A stretch of 64,000 bases of DNA from Gemmatimonadaceae bacterium (GTDB lineage: Bacteria > Gemmatimonadota > Gemmatimonadetes > Gemmatimonadales > Gemmatimonadaceae). Position numbers and translations under genes: made by a program. Within the stretch, counting starts at the first letter, position 1; each line of letters begins with the position of its first letter. Where the stretch lies: positions 124,001 to 188,000 of the forward strand of contig JAHBVS010000003.1 of the NCBI GenBank assembly GCA_019637445.1, written 5' to 3'. The notes beneath the pieces were generated by a model. That model saw only the letters and a program-made list of their open reading frames with translations. It was not told where the DNA came from and did no database searches. Below are positions 4,772 through 60,682 of this stretch, one piece after another.

Positions 4772-5823
4772 TTGCGGCAGTCGCCGTTGCCGGCGTGCTG
4801 GCGCTCGCCAGCCCGGGCCGCGCGCAGGTTGCCATCGCGCAGGTTGCCATCGCGCAGGTTGCCATCGCGCAGGTTGCCATCGCGCAGGATGCCGCCCGGG
4901 GCGATGCGATCCCGCCCGGCGCGCTGACAATCGCCGAAGGCCGCTACACCGTGGCCTACTACTCCGACGAGGCGCGCCTCGCGCGCTCGCTGCTGCAGGA
5001 GGCGCTGGCGCGCGACTCGTTTCCGGGGTTGCCGCGCCCGACAGCGTCGGTGCTGCTGTTGCTCGCGCCGGACGCCGAGCGCTTCCGCGTGTGGGTGGGC
5101 GCCAGCGCCCCCGAGTGGGGCGATGCCATCGCGTTTCCGGTTGAGCAACGCATCGTGATGTATGGGCGCGACGCGGCGGCACGCAGCGGCGACCCGCGGA
5201 TCACGCTGCGACACGAACTCGCACACCTGGCCCTGCACGAGGTGCTCGGTGCGGCGGTGCCACGTTGGTTCGACGAGGGTTACGCGTCCTACGCGGCCGG
5301 CGAATGGGGGCGCGACGAGGTGATTGCCACCAGCGTCGGGCTCGTCTGGCGCGGCCTGCCGACCTTGGCGGGACTCGATTCGGGATTTTACGGGGGGTCG
5401 GAGGTGGCGCAGCGCTCATACGCGCTCGCGCACCGGGCTGTGGCCGAGCTGGCCGGCCTCGCCCCAGATCGCGGCCTCGCGCTCCTCTTCAATCACTGGC
5501 GGCGAGAAGGGACCTTCGAGCGCGCGCTGCGGCGTGCGCACGGCATGTCCTCAGCAGACTTCGAACGCCATTGGCGGTTGCGCATCCGGCGACAGTACGG
5601 GGCGCTAGCCTTGGCGGCGGACCTCACGGTGCTCTCCGCGTTCCTGTTGCTACTACTTGGGCCCATGTGGTGGCAGCGGCGCACTCGCCAGCGGCTACGG
5701 CTGGAGCGTATGCGACAGGCGGACGCGGCGCAGGAAGCGCGAGAGCGGGCAAGTGCCCTTGCGGCGCTGCTCGGCGAGGATGTCACGGAATCGCCCGGTG
5801 ACGACCGCATTAAGGGTTCGTGA
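4717..5823 (+). CDS. Exported, membrane-anchored peptidase-MA-like protein (gluzincin)
   Basis: The central domain carries the zinc-metallopeptidase signature HELAH, with DEGYASY about 30 residues later supplying the usual third-ligand Glu, as in the peptidase MA-like family. The N-terminus has an Arg-rich start and a hydrophobic stretch (LIAAVAVAGVLALA) followed by four copies of VAIAQ, encoded by a 15-bp tandem repeat at the expected signal-peptidase site. Near residue 310 a second hydrophobic segment (VLSAFLLLLLGPMWW) followed by Arg/Lys predicts a C-terminal anchor with a cytoplasmic tail. The start is uncertain: GTG 4717 gives a good signal sequence but overlaps the upstream gene by 55 bases; GTG 4633 and GTG 4795 are alternatives. 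The substrate is unknown. Confidence 0.8.
   Translation: MRGDAQAGRGRGRVVARLIAAVAVAGVLALASPGRAQVAIAQVAIAQVAIAQVAIAQDAARGDAIPPGALTIAEGRYTVAYYSDEARLARSLLQEALARDSFPGLPRPTASVLLLLAPDAERFRVWVGASAPEWGDAIAFPVEQRIVMYGRDAAARSGDPRITLRHELAHLALHEVLGAAVPRWFDEGYASYAAGEWGRDEVIATSVGLVWRGLPTLAGLDSGFYGGSEVAQRSYALAHRAVAELAGLAPDRGLALLFNHWRREGTFERALRRAHGMSSADFERHWRLRIRRQYGALALAADLTVLSAFLLLLLGPMWWQRRTRQRLRLERMRQADAAQEARERASALAALLGEDVTESPGDDRIKGS
4822..4887 (+). repeat. 15-bp coding tandem repeat (four VAIAQ copies)
   Basis: Four exact copies of the 15-mer GCGCAGGTTGCCATC run from 4822 to 4881, followed by a partial copy (GCGCAG). The repeat is in frame and encodes VAIAQ at the signal-peptide cleavage region of the peptidase-MA-like protein. 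Perfect identity implies recent expansion. Confidence 0.95.
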
Positions 5824-8024: not shown

Positions 8025-8044
8025 CCTCGCCTCGCGCGAGACCC

Positions 8045-8079
8045 GATGCCCGCCGTCGTCTTTGACGACGGCGGGCATC
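8045..8079 (+). terminator. Hairpin terminator after the CsgG-like/TPR gene
   Basis: Perfect 16-bp inverted repeat GATGCCCGCCGTCGTC (8045-8060) and its complement (8064-8079) around a TTT loop. It is followed by GTCGTTTCG rather than a strong T run. It separates the TPR gene from rsmH and so marks the start of the division cluster. Confidence 0.8.
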
Positions 8080-8100
8080 GTCGTTTCGCCGCCGCGCGTT

Positions 8101-20515: not shown

Positions 20516-21289
20516 ATGCGCGACACGGCTGCAGATGGAACAGGTCGGTCGGCGCGCGGCCTCGGTGCGTCGGGCACGGGCGATGGCGGCGGGCCCAGCA
20601 AGTCGCGTCGCCTACTGCACCGCATCACGCGTGTTGCGCTGGTGCTGGCCGTGCTCGCCAGCCCCTGGTGGGGACGCGCCCTGCTGCAGCAGATGGACTT
20701 CTTCCGCGTGCAGCGCGTGGAGCTCGAGGGCCTCCGTTACGCCGCGCCCGACGAAATCGTTTCGCGGTTGAGGGTCGACACGACCGCGTCCGTGTGGGAC
20801 GACGTGTCGCCGCTCGAGGCGCGGGTGGCGGAGCATCCGCAGGTGCGCACGGTGCGTATCCGGCGAAAGCTTCCCGGCACGCTCGTCGTCGTCGTGACGG
20901 AGAATCCGCCGGTAGCATTGGTCAACACGCCGCGCGGGATGGTGGTCACGGATGCGGCGGGGGACTCGCTACCGGTGGATCCCACGGCGGTTGACGTGGA
21001 CCTGCCGGTGCTCGCCCGGGAGGACACGCTGCTGCTCCGGCTGCTCGCGGAGACGCAGGCCGATGAGCCGGCCCTCTTCGCGCGACTGAGCGAAGCAGGC
21101 CGGACGGCGCGGGGGGATGTGCTGCTGGAACTCGCCGAGTTCCGGATCCTCGCGACGCCGGCGGTAACGGCCGCGCGGCTGGCCGACGTGCTCCCCGTGG
21201 AACTCGATGCGGCGCGACGTCAGTGGACGATCCGTGAGCTCGACCTACGCTACCGTGACCAAGTGATCGTCCGTCTAAAGACCAAATGA
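20516..21289 (+). CDS. ftsQ: Cell division protein FtsQ (POTRA domain)
   Basis: Bitopic divisome protein of the FtsQLB complex. The 257-residue protein has a polar cytoplasmic tail of about 35 residues, a membrane helix (ITRVALVLAVLASPWWG), then a POTRA-type domain (FFRVQRVELEGLRYAAPDEIV, VSPLEARVAEHPQVRTVRIRRKLPGTL split over residues 62-125) and a beta domain with VTDAAGDSLP. Location between murC and ftsA, topology and POTRA pattern agree. The stop overlaps the ftsA ATG (ATGA). Confidence 0.93.
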   Translation: MRDTAADGTGRSARGLGASGTGDGGGPSKSRRLLHRITRVALVLAVLASPWWGRALLQQMDFFRVQRVELEGLRYAAPDEIVSRLRVDTTASVWDDVSPLEARVAEHPQVRTVRIRRKLPGTLVVVVTENPPVALVNTPRGMVVTDAAGDSLPVDPTAVDVDLPVLAREDTLLLRLLAETQADEPALFARLSEAGRTARGDVLLELAEFRILATPAVTAARLADVLPVELDAARRQWTIRELDLRYRDQVIVRLKTK

Positions 21290-22554
21290 ACCTCGACCGT
21301 CTCGTCGCTGGCCTCGATATCGGATCCGCCAAGACCACCGCTGTCATCGCGGAGGTCGTGGGGGATCTGCCCAAGCATCCCACGGTGAACATCCTGGGCG
21401 TCGGGCAGGCGCGCACCACGGGCCTGCGGAAGGGCGTGGTGGCCGACATCGAGGAAACGCAGCGCTCCATCACCAAGGCCATGCAGGACGCCGAGCGAAT
21501 GGCAGGCGCGCGCGTCGAGACCGTCTATGCGGGCATCGCCGGCGAGCACGTGCAGGCCATGACCTCCACGGGCATCGCCAGCGTGACCGGCAAGGAAATC
21601 ACCCGCGCCGACGTGGACCGCGCCAATGCGGTCGCCCGCGCGCAGGCCATTCCGCAGGACCGCGAGCTGATCCACGCAATCCCGCAGGAATACACGGTCG
21701 ACAAGAACCAGGGCGTGCGCGATCCCGTCGGCATGATCGGCACGCGGCTCGAGACGGAGATGTACCTCGTCACCATCGGCGCCTCGCCGGCGATGAACCT
21801 GCGCAAGGCGGTGGAGCGGGCCGGGTATCAGGTCGGTGAGCTGGTACTGGAGCCGCTCGCGTCTGCGCTCTCCGTGCTGACGGACGACGAAAAGGAACTG
21901 GGTGTCGCCCTGATCGAGATGGGCGCCGGCACCACCGACGTCGCCGTCTTCCACGAAGGCAAGATCCGCTACCTCGGCACCGTCGGCTTCGGTGGCGTGA
22001 ACGTCACCAGCGACATCGTGCACGGACTCGGCGTGACGCAGTTGGATGCGGAGCGCCTCAAGGAGCAGTACGGCGCGGCCTATGAGCCGATCGTGAAGCA
22101 GACGGGCGAGGTCATCAAGCTGCCGAGCACGGCGGCGCAGGGCGACCGGGAGATCCCGCGCGAGTTGCTGGCACACATCATCCACCAGCGCACGCAGGAG
22201 ATCTACGAGATGGTCCTGCGCAACGTGGAGGAGGCCGGCCTGCTGCCGCGCCTCGCCGCGGGTGTGGTGGTGACCGGTGGCGCCGCGGCCCAGCCGGGCT
22301 CGGATCTGTTGGCCAGCGACGTCTTCGGCACCGGCGCCCGCGTCGGCGTCCCCGGTGAGTACCTTGGCGGCCTCGCCGACAGCGTCCAGAGCCCGCGCTT
22401 CTCCACCGTGACCGGCCTGGTCCAGTATGGCGCCCACCGCGTGGCGATCGGGGCCAGCCAAGGGAAGGGGCGGCGGCTGTCGCTCTCGAATGCGGCGCCG
22501 AACATGGACTCGATGGCGCAGCGGTTTAAGACTTGGCTGCAGGATTGGTTTTAA
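21286..22554 (+). CDS. ftsA: Actin-like cell division protein FtsA
   Basis: Membrane-tethered actin homologue that anchors FtsZ. The 422-residue protein has the phosphate-1 motif AGLDIGSAKTTAVIAEV, the 1C region with ADVDRANAVARAQAIP, HAIPQEYTVD, the second phosphate loop LIEMGAGTTDVAVF, and VVVTGGAAAQPG. The final residues (FKTWLQDWF) form an amphipathic helix expected to bind the membrane. The ATG overlaps the ftsQ stop. A heptad-repeat palindrome begins at the base after its stop codon and separates it from ftsZ. Confidence 0.97.
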   Translation: MNLDRLVAGLDIGSAKTTAVIAEVVGDLPKHPTVNILGVGQARTTGLRKGVVADIEETQRSITKAMQDAERMAGARVETVYAGIAGEHVQAMTSTGIASVTGKEITRADVDRANAVARAQAIPQDRELIHAIPQEYTVDKNQGVRDPVGMIGTRLETEMYLVTIGASPAMNLRKAVERAGYQVGELVLEPLASALSVLTDDEKELGVALIEMGAGTTDVAVFHEGKIRYLGTVGFGGVNVTSDIVHGLGVTQLDAERLKEQYGAAYEPIVKQTGEVIKLPSTAAQGDREIPRELLAHIIHQRTQEIYEMVLRNVEEAGLLPRLAAGVVVTGGAAAQPGSDLLASDVFGTGARVGVPGEYLGGLADSVQSPRFSTVTGLVQYGAHRVAIGASQGKGRRLSLSNAAPNMDSMAQRFKTWLQDWF

Positions 22555-22650
22555 GACGGAAGACGGAGGACGAAGGACGGAAGAGAACGGCGGACAGCGG
22601 CGATTCGGGGCGGGGCTCCGGATCGCCGTTTGGCTTCCGTCCTTCGTCCT
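22555..22650. repeat. Inverted heptad-repeat element (GACGRAG family) between ftsA and ftsZ
   Basis: Four 7-mers (GACGGAA, GACGGAG, GACGAAG, GACGGAA) run from 22555 to 22582, starting at the base after the ftsA stop. Bases 22567-22583 are the exact reverse complement of 22634-22650, and an inner pair AACGGCG (22586-22592) / CGCCGTT (22624-22630) extends the hairpin around a GC-rich core. The same heptad occurs in tandem at 31627-31661. The element may act as a 3' hairpin for ftsA mRNA. Confidence 0.85.
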
Positions 22651-22776
22651 ACCACCTTCGCCTCTGTCCGAGGTCACAAATCTGCTCAATCCAGTCGAAG
22701 GCAGTGGACAACCCCACCGTTTCCCCCGCACCCCCCGAGTCGTCATCCCACGTGTGAAGGCGGGCCCGGATTGGGC

Positions 22777-22784
22777 TATATTTC
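22777..22784 (+). promoter_or_regulatory. Putative -10 region for ftsZ
   Basis: TATATTTC in the otherwise GC-rich 288-base ftsA-ftsZ gap resembles the TAKCTTTC boxes elsewhere in the window. It would place transcription about 50 bases before the ftsZ ATG. The -35 region is unclear (GTGAAG at 17-base spacing). The rest of the gap, apart from the upstream palindrome, shows no gene. Confidence 0.35.
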
Positions 22785-22842: not shown

Positions 22843-24015
22843 ATGAGCATCTTCGAGTTCGAGGAGACCAACGCCCAACACGCCCGGATGAAGGTCGTGG
22901 GGGTTGGCGGCGGCGGTGGCAACGCGGTCAACCGGATGATCGAGGAGCAGCTCGAGGGCGTCGAGTTCATTTCCGTGAACACCGACGCGCAGGCGCTGCT
23001 CAACTCCAAGTCCGACGTCAAGATCCAGATCGGCAAGAAGCTCACGCGGGGCCTCGGCGCCGGCGCCCGCCCGGAAATCGGGCGTCAGGCGATCGAGGAA
23101 AATCGCGATGAGGTGATGCGCGCCATCCAAGGCTCGGACCTCGTGTTCGTGACCTGCGGCATGGGTGGCGGCACCGGCACCGGTGCGGCGCCGATCGTCT
23201 GCGAACTCGCACGTGAGGTCGGCGCGCTCACCGTGGGCATCGTCACCAAGCCGTTCCTGTTCGAAGGCCGCAAGCGCATGCGCCAGGCCGACGAGGGCAT
23301 CGCCGAGATGGCCAAGCACGTGGACACGATGATCGTCGTGCCCAACGAGCGGCTGCTCGCCGTGGTGGGCAAGGGCATCCCGTTCCAAGACGCGCTCAAG
23401 AAGGCCGACGAAGTGCTGCTGCAGGCCACGGGCGGCATCTCCGGCATCATCACGAAGGCCGGCATGGTGAACGTGGACTTCGCCGACGTGCGCACGGTCA
23501 TGAAGGACGGCGGCTCGGCCATCATGGGCACCGGCATCGGCCGCGGCGACAACCGCGCGCTGGACGCTGCCCGCATGGCCATCGAGAGCCCGCTGCTCGA
23601 CAACGTGTCGATCGCTGGCGCGCGCGGTGTGCTGATCAACATCACCGGCGGCCACGAGATGACGCTGGACGAGGTCACGACCATCGCCGAGGTGGTGAAG
23701 GAAGCGGTGGGCGAGGAGGCCGAGATCATCTTCGGCTCGGTGAGCGAGCCGGCCATGCAGGGCGAGGTGCGCGTGACGGTGATCGCCACGGGCTTCGCGC
23801 GGAAGGCGCAGGGTGGGATGGCGATCCCGCAGCGGGCCAGCACGCCGGTGATCCCGTTGGATCCGCTCGCGCGTTCGCAGCGTCCGTCGATCGGTGGCAC
23901 GCAGGCTCCGGCGGCAGGGAATGCTGTGCCGCGCCCGCGGCCCTCGCAGGCCCGCCCGGCGGAGGATCTCAGCGACCTCGAGATCCCGACGTTCATTCGG
24001 AGACAGATGGACTGA
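22843..24015 (+). CDS. ftsZ: Tubulin-like division GTPase FtsZ
   Basis: Forms the Z ring. The 390-residue protein has [16 protein letters not shown], the tubulin signature GGGTGTG at about 108-114, [11 protein letters not shown], the T7 loop region with [13 protein letters not shown], and a short linker (about 325-375) ending in the conserved C-terminal peptide [11 protein letters not shown] that binds FtsA. ATG 22843 was chosen because the upstream in-frame extension lies in the non-coding gap and has no family match. The stop overlaps the start of the M23 peptidase gene (TGATG). Confidence 0.98.
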
Positions 24016-31617: not shown

Positions 31618-31626
31618 ACGTGGGAG

Positions 31627-31661
31627 GACGAAGGACGGAGGACGAAGGACGAAGGACGAAG
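31627..31661. repeat. Five tandem GACGRAG heptads
   Basis: GACGAAG, GACGGAG, then three GACGAAG copies in perfect 7-base register, beginning nine bases after the nitrilase stop. The heptad is the same as in the palindrome between ftsA and ftsZ. No inverted partner was found within this gap; a strong hairpin begins nine bases downstream. Confidence 0.9.
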
Positions 31662-42363: not shown

Positions 42364-42376
42364 GCCTTGAACTGCA

Positions 42377-42487
42377 TTGCCACAGAGACACAGAGGCACA
42401 GAGCAGGCAACGACTGAAGTGCCTTGGAACGACGGAGGGCTCCGCAACACTGCGGAGCCCTCTGTGTCTCTGTGCCTCTGTGGCAAA
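42377..42487. repeat. Inverted CACAGAGR element, copy 1
   Basis: The left arm TTGCCACAGAGACACAGAGG (continuing to 42403) and the right arm 42460-42487 are inverted copies made of 8-base CACAGAGR units, three per arm. Between them is a perfect hairpin (42436-42461). It lies 13 bases after the ALDH stop, in the gap to the converging tgt gene. A second copy with the same arms but another core is at 60524-60643. Confidence 0.92.
42436..42461. terminator. Hairpin in the core of the CACAGAGR element
   Basis: AGGGCTCCGCA (42436-42446) and TGCGGAGCCCT (42451-42461) form a perfect 11-bp stem with an ACAC loop between two converging genes. It lacks a T tract, but its place suits a bidirectional terminator for the aldehyde dehydrogenase and tgt. 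Confidence 0.55.
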
Positions 42488-42503
42488 CTTCAGCGCGCCG
42501 ATC

Positions 42504-60494: not shown

Positions 60495-60523
60495 TGCTCT
60501 CCTGAGTCTAATGCGCTGAGGTG

Positions 60524-60643
60524 TTTGCCACAGAGGCACAGAGAACCACAAGTGCTTGAAGGGGGCGCTTCTGCTGCCCTCGCGCGTTGTTCACCCTCGC
60601 AGTGCCGTTGTAGTTCTCTGTGTCTCTGTGCCTCTGTGGCATT
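60524..60643. repeat. Inverted CACAGAGR element, copy 2
   Basis: The left arm starts TTTGCCACAGAGGCACAGAG at 60524; the right arm (60611-60643) is its reverse complement but holds one extra 8-base unit. The core (about 60 bases) differs from copy 1 at 42377-42487, apart from a similar AAGTGC(C)TTG(G)AA stretch. Homology with copy 1 also reaches outside the arm (GAACTGCA, reading the minus strand here). It fills most of the 188-base argS-kinase gap. Confidence 0.92.
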
Positions 60644-60682
60644 CAGTTGCAGTTCCTTTCCAAACGCAGAACCCAAAGGGCA

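Follow-up and report, generated by a model that had tools for sequence, protein, structure and literature searches.

The junction between the cell-division genes ftsA and ftsZ in the genome analysed here (G000; 3.35 Mb, 7 contigs), that of a soil-type bacterium placed in Gemmatimonadaceae by the relatives of its FtsA, holds a long palindrome of GACGRAG heptads. It raises the question of whether the palindrome is a device that sets ftsZ expression or a copy of a dispersed repeat whose effect on ftsZ is incidental. The window, throughout, is the whole 64,000-nucleotide stretch of DNA that was analysed.

Anatomy of the ftsA-ftsZ palindrome

Pfam matches confirm both genes, and the gap between them is therefore 288 bases long, starting at 22555. 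Its surroundings and parts are as follows.

21286-22554, + strand: ftsA (Pfam FtsA 2.9e-36, SHS2_FTSA)
22555-22583, + strand: left array GACGGAA GACGGAG GACGAAG GACGGAAG, its first base directly after the ftsA stop
22598-22628: GC-rich core hairpin, arms 22598-22611 and 22615-22628 with a 3-nt loop; related cores at loci L142, L157 and L159
22634-22663, - strand: right array (CTYCGTC on the + strand), including CTTCCGTCCTTCGTCCTACCACCTTCG; perfect over 22634-22650, degenerate to 22663
22843-24015, + strand: ftsZ (Pfam Tubulin 9.9e-51, FtsZ_C 1.6e-32)

The preliminary description had placed a palindrome with 17-bp perfect outer arms immediately after the ftsA stop, and both the coordinates and the shuffles bear this out. 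The longest perfect arm (AGGACGAAGGACGGAAG, 22567-22583, partner 22634-22650) measures 17 bp, against 11 at most when the gap was shuffled 120 times with its dinucleotides preserved, and it lies within imperfect outer arms (22554-22583 and 22634-22663) of 80% complementarity. An inner stem is present as described, but its length is not the 7 bp given; it extends over 14 nt at 86% complementarity. Folded as RNA, the segment 22540-22700 reaches -81.5 kcal/mol on the + strand (z = -6.8 against shuffles) and -70.1 kcal/mol on the - strand (z = -4.2). Rfam returned 13 weak matches to the palindrome, all far under their gathering scores; an Rfam identity was rejected, these being mostly microRNA precursors and one IRES, the sort drawn by any long hairpin.

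A hairpin this stable on both strands invites the explanation proposed initially, that the dcw transcript ends behind ftsA, at a selected terminator or RNA-processing site, so that ftsZ dosage is uncoupled. However, only TTT follows the core stem, which falls short of the GC-rich stem and T-run of an intrinsic terminator, and neither the sigma-70 nor the terminator scan gave a match.

The palindrome is one of many dispersed copies

G000 has 73 exact copies of the double heptad GACGRAGGACGRAG and the congener G005 has 34, but each of 59 other relatives has 0-1; the reversed-pattern control is found 0 times in G000. With at most one mismatch, G000 has 155 places against 7 control places. A looser triple pattern gives 53 matches in G000, 233 in G005 (whose arrays are mainly of GACGGAT and GACGGAG units), 110 in G008, 16 in G002 and 1 in G012, and zero in the other 12 congeners. 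Contig C172 of G002 packs fourteen triple-heptad matches into about 3.6 kb, an unusual concentration. When the gap was compared by BLAST with the rest of G000, 32 other places matched at E < 0.001.

Some copies share the whole composite design. The window element and those at L142, L157 and L159 align across arms and core with a mean column identity of 75%, and the consensus fold of these four copies holds 39 pairs, among which 5 show a two-sided change. Cores otherwise differ between copies of the dyads. Many dyads enclose terminator-like stems, a point in favour of termination; one such core, GGCGAGGCCGTACGGCCTCGCC with its close variants, recurs in 8 fetched regions, with an array nearby every time. 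Further arrays lie elsewhere in the window.

31623-31661, + strand: second GACGRAG array, 5 bp downstream of a CN_hydrolase gene, in a convergent setting
42364-42503: intergenic region with inverted arrays of the octad CACAGAGR on both sides, score 22
60495-60682: another intergenic region with inverted CACAGAGR arrays on both sides, score 19, with 19-bp perfect arms

The CACAGAGR brackets are a second unit family with the same architecture as GACGRAG in the same genome. Of 150 genomes from the phylum, 19 contain the CACAGAGR word pair; G000 has it 192 times, against 25 for the reversed control. Two further repeats were also seen in the window: a 15-bp tandem repeat at 4821-4893 (4.9 copies, 98% matches) and, at 8044-8080, an intergenic inverted repeat with perfect arms of 17 bp and a loop of 3 nt.

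Read from its sequence, the GACGRAG family is a dispersed non-coding composite inverted repeat, in which opposed tandem arrays flank a core, here a GC-rich hairpin. Comparison with related genomes, which had been put forward as a check, did not support a role for the palindrome in uncoupling ftsZ: several congeners are palindrome-free at ftsA-ftsZ. As one of dozens of dispersed copies, some of them inside genes, the palindrome is not an ftsZ-specific device. A terminator selected after ftsA is likewise difficult to reconcile with the absence of the palindrome from this junction in G004, G014, G009 and G001, or with copies inside coding genes and between divergent genes.

Polarity and placement at gene edges

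Arrays in G000 were read in 42 fetched regions and the window, with clusters taken from the matches listed (100 of the 155 places), the BLAST places and the exact-double-heptad places. The G005 sample comprises 18 regions picked by GACGRAG matches alone, with three listed places left out. Polarity and edge statistics concern arrays outside called genes, the gene calls coming from a home-made caller.

Among the matches listed, the 48 G000 clusters divide into 28 '+-', 17 single, 2 '++' and 1 '+-++', and the 25 clusters in the 18 G005 regions into 14 '+-' and 11 single. Inverted pairs in the two genomes therefore number, among the matches listed, 42 with GACGRAG first and CTYCGTC second and 0 in the opposite order, and the two array cores of a pair are 7-138 nt apart. 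By eye, tRNA-like sequences lie between the arrays of the '+-++' cluster; at L126 and L155 such sequences are flanked or separated by GACGRAG arrays.

The purine strand also has a fixed relation to the neighbouring gene. The median distance of its 5' end from the gene edge is 11 bp for the 73 intergenic arrays of G000 (matches listed; 60 under random placement) and 4.5 bp for the 34 of G005 (37 under random placement). Within 20 bp of a gene are 46 arrays in G000 (matches listed; 14.2 expected) and 28 in G005 (10.4 expected), and the 5' side is nearer the gene than the 3' side in 57/73 (matches listed) and 31/34 arrays, respectively. No clear gene-orientation preference emerged in G000, where tandem, convergent and divergent contexts number 27/9/5 with arrays and 42/10/10 without, while G005 has fewer divergent contexts with arrays (16/4/1 against 34/5/20).

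Arms within a pair resemble each other little more than arms from different loci do (p = 0.043 in G000 among the matches listed; p = 0.91 in G005). Since arm-to-arm covariation is weak in the one genome and absent in the other, neither recent arm copying nor strong selection for pairing is shown.

Where the 3' end of a gene abuts an array, the stop codon is TAG in 15/30 cases, compared with 43/167 other genes (L123-L164 and the window). The variant unit GTKGTAG may supply the TAG stop of such genes.

Orthologous sites bear brackets of different units, or none

Sites L144, L158, L151 and L140 were picked for clean anatomy in G000 before the congener states were known; bracket totals at every compared site include G000, and unit names at L151 are our reading of the arms. 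At L151, a significant bracket with a best period of 7 is found in 11/15 genomes, and its unit varies: GACGAAG in G000, GACGGAA in G008, GACGGAT in G005, AGATGTR in G012, GAGATGK-like in G010, G007 and G016, GGTGTGA in G003, CAGGTATC-like in G004 and G013, and GGATGAA in G015. G006, G011 and G014 failed the bracket test, and the spacer in G001 is just 18 bp. Between the arms, which reach as far as the next start codon, lie a terminator-like stem and CATATT, a promoter-like motif. This stem and motif seem orthologous across congeners, so that simple insertion of one ready-made unit does not account for all copies.

Brackets are less frequent at other sites. L144 is bracketed in 5/16 spanned genomes, with different units, and its spacer is 6-25 bp in 10/16 and 40 bp in G012. 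L158 has a bracket in G000 alone of 6 spanned genomes including G000, which runs against a dispersed-repeat reading. In the in-frame linker of a DnaE-type polymerase gene, G000 has a GACGRAG dyad and G005 a 234-bp nested CACAGAGGG/CGCAGAGG palindrome (L282); only these two genomes show a significant bracket with tandem arms there. The 39-bp linker of G008 gives p = 0.003 without tandem arms, and G012, G003 and G016 have tandem runs by eye and failed the bracket test; these results, too, run against that reading. Concentric nesting takes a similar form at L282 and at the G005 ftsA-ftsZ gap (L193), with CACAGAGGG arrays outside, CGCAGAGG inside and a central hairpin.

At ftsA-ftsZ itself, significant brackets with tandem arms occur in 6/17 genomes (G000, G012, G005, G002, G015 and G003). 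The arrays of G016 (p = 0.27) and G008 (p = 0.60) are seen by eye only, and G013 and G007 give p of about 0.01-0.02 without tandem arms, which likewise runs against a dispersed-repeat reading. A tree of FtsA and FtsZ joins G000 to G008, and G005 to G012 and G002; one small clade therefore holds different units. In the ftsA-ftsZ gap of G015, the opposite strand carries a small gene (L198:812-1210, - strand) whose product has a CZB (chemoreceptor zinc-binding) domain (Pfam), and the long gaps of G003, G016 and G006 look similar by eye.

Across a wider set, a significant inverted repeat is present in 26/68 ftsA-ftsZ gaps against 0/63 control windows (27/69 with L107, which was left out because a run of N matched itself). 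Of the 26, 8 pass a strict tandem-arm test, the window copy and L193 falling below its cut-off. The place after ftsA is therefore favoured for palindromes of many sequences. This is a point for a selected terminator or processing site, as it could equally mean selection for a hairpin; set against the missing T-run, the palindrome-free congeners and the copies inside coding genes and between divergent ones, we regard that explanation as possible but doubtful.

The L151 anatomy suggests a further mechanism, a read-through insulator, in which the array in the 3'-UTR of one gene would pair with the array at the 5' edge of the following gene solely in RNA that reads through, silencing translation of the following gene, whereas RNA from the internal promoter would stay open. 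It accords with L151 arrays bracketing terminator and promoter and reaching the start codon in many congeners, and with arms that stay complementary there despite the change of unit. However, dyads also lie between convergent or divergent genes and inside genes, the right array in the window precedes the ftsZ promoter rather than standing at the start codon, and the arm match in cis is barely or not above that between loci, which makes the mechanism improbable.

A conserved module upstream of ftsZ

The expectation of a tight ftsA-ftsZ junction fails in this family: among the relatives in which both genes were found, the gaps run from 118 bp to about 2.6 kb. In the window, four elements follow the palindrome, which ends at 22663, upstream of all of them.

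22674-22684, + strand: box 1, TCACAAATCTG, seen by inspection in many of 49 aligned upstream regions
22704-22712, + strand: box 2, GTGGACAAC (family form GTGGATAAC), resembling a DnaA box
22739-22744, + strand: GTCGTC (family TCGTC); [CT]TCGTC in 39/69 regions, and from the alignment
22777-22782, + strand: TATATT, probable ftsZ -10 element, in 61/69 distinct ftsZ upstream regions

For the alignment, 49/81 ftsZ upstream regions were kept after filters for motif, length and redundancy. By inspection, relatives have the same order, with a TCACAAATCTG-like box followed by box 2 and then TCGTC. Box 2 (GTGGAWAAC-like) scores at least 8/9 in 28/49 regions, 73-95 bp upstream of TATATT, against a shuffle maximum of 2.

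Since this conserved module sits just downstream of the palindrome, ftsZ probably has its own promoter, independent of the palindrome. The suggestion that ftsZ is driven from the region downstream thus finds support, in a probable promoter at TATATT whose -10 element and upstream boxes recur in relatives. The palindrome as the cause of the uncoupling does not: palindrome-free congeners still have a gap of at least 118 bp and retain TATATT in gaps of 118-160 bp, in which the two upstream boxes are not evident. The tempting reading is thereby corrected, in that it was probably the conserved upstream module, and not the palindrome, that gave ftsZ its own expression. Box 2 takes the form TGTGGATAA in some relatives, which resembles a DnaA box, and the GTGGATAAC box makes DnaA control of ftsZ in Gemmatimonadota possible.

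Origin and effect of the arrays

A REP/REPIN-type element mobilised by a RAYT would account for elements that are intergenic, palindromic, multi-copy and mostly between tandem or convergent genes, and the GACGRAG dyads do resemble REP, BIME and REPIN sequences as dispersed intergenic palindromes, some of them inside genes. CGTC REPs have fixed 8-9-bp stems, 4-5-nt loops and a terminal tag (PMC3733652). Unlike these, the dyads have variable-number tandem heptads and variable loops, and not a fixed 20-40-bp stem tagged with GTAG or CGTC. Sister species moreover have different units, and a RAYT-type transposase domain (PF01797, Y1_Tnp) was matched in 0/17 congeneric genomes (G000 and its 16 congeners), so mobilisation of this kind is highly improbable. 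Recombination between the inverted arms that flips the enclosed segment, as in a phase-variable promoter, is scarcely credible: promoter-like motifs are enclosed by inverted arms at some loci, but in the window the dyad does not include the ftsZ promoter, the arms are short and degenerate, and the order of terminator and promoter at L151 is the same by eye in the bracketed congeners.

Our preferred reading, which we consider reasonably likely, is that the palindrome is a copy of an intergenic repeat, either mobile or self-amplifying, and that it may in addition act as a terminator of ftsA transcripts, with ftsZ expressed from its own promoter. As far as genome comparison goes, the family is multi-copy, uniform in polarity and sited at gene edges, is absent from some orthologous sites and differs in unit at the same sites. 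The arrays would arise and spread by copying that needs no RAYT, through slippage or template switching together with recombination between copies, and would persist only where they are harmless, at gene edges and rarely in in-frame linkers. The ftsA message would end in a very stable hairpin, probably leading to partial termination or 3'-end protection, and ftsZ would be transcribed from its conserved promoter just downstream. Any effect of this copy on the cell is then likely to be a by-product of the repeat. It counts against the dispersed-repeat reading that no copying machinery for the arrays was identified and that no target-site duplication was noticed by eye in the compared spacers. 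So do the orthologous-looking stem and motif at L151 and the inverted repeats that many relatives have after ftsA.

Comparison with known systems

Uptake-sequence and invertible-promoter readings of the arrays were weighed and given low weight. DNA uptake sequences form inverted pairs near terminators and are single longer words at high density, whereas GACGRAG forms tandem heptads at a few dozen loci. In the Neisseriaceae, uptake sequences fall into dialects of species-specific words (PMC3630211).

Other short-unit arrays come closer. The TAACTGA heptamers of Beggiatoaceae are, like GACGRAG, intergenic; they adjoin start codons and are direct repeats with one indirect repeat, and the abstract describes no bracketing pairs for them (PMC4679880). 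Borg tandem repeats evolve rapidly, arise independently and are both intergenic and in frame inside genes, but Borgs are extrachromosomal archaeal elements and their repeats are direct (PMC9879509). In the literature under open licence, no description of such arrays in Gemmatimonadota was found.

The closest likeness is to the GGGAATC and GGGGAYT heptamers of Xanthomonas and Nostoc. As reported by Rehm et al. 2015 (PMC4692102), these form mostly intergenic tandem arrays whose G-rich strand has its 5' end near an ORF whatever the direction of that ORF, at 28 nt on average where the opposite side averages 160 nt; inverted pairs are always convergent (70 and 75 cases), and the function is given as unknown. 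Measured against that description, GACGRAG is likewise a 7-bp tandem unit (period 7), its purine-strand 5' end abuts the ORF regardless of direction (among the matches listed), and its inverted pairs are convergent only (42 against 0, among the matches listed). It differs from the arrays so described in that its copies share cores, the units of sister species differ per site and G005 has nested palindromes. A further difference is that tandem GACGRAG has at most GG, with no G-tract of three or more and no classic quadruplex; quadruplexes are therefore not the common cause of the shared placement and polarity.

That heptad arrays can lie at the edges of bacterial genes was already known, and the Xanthomonas and Nostoc forms have been discussed in terms of quadruplexes. 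Here the same rules of placement and polarity hold with a unit unable to form a classic quadruplex, and different units occupy the same sites in sister species; architecture is therefore separable from sequence. We tentatively suggest that bracketing inverted arrays of short units could be a general bacterial gene-edge class, in which the site is inherited and the unit overwritten: in Gemmatimonadota, Xanthomonas and Nostoc, a process requiring neither quadruplex nor RAYT would write a lineage-specific purine-rich word, facing away from each gene, at conserved boundaries. What writes the arrays, and why at gene edges, becomes a question that can be tested by comparing closely related genomes.
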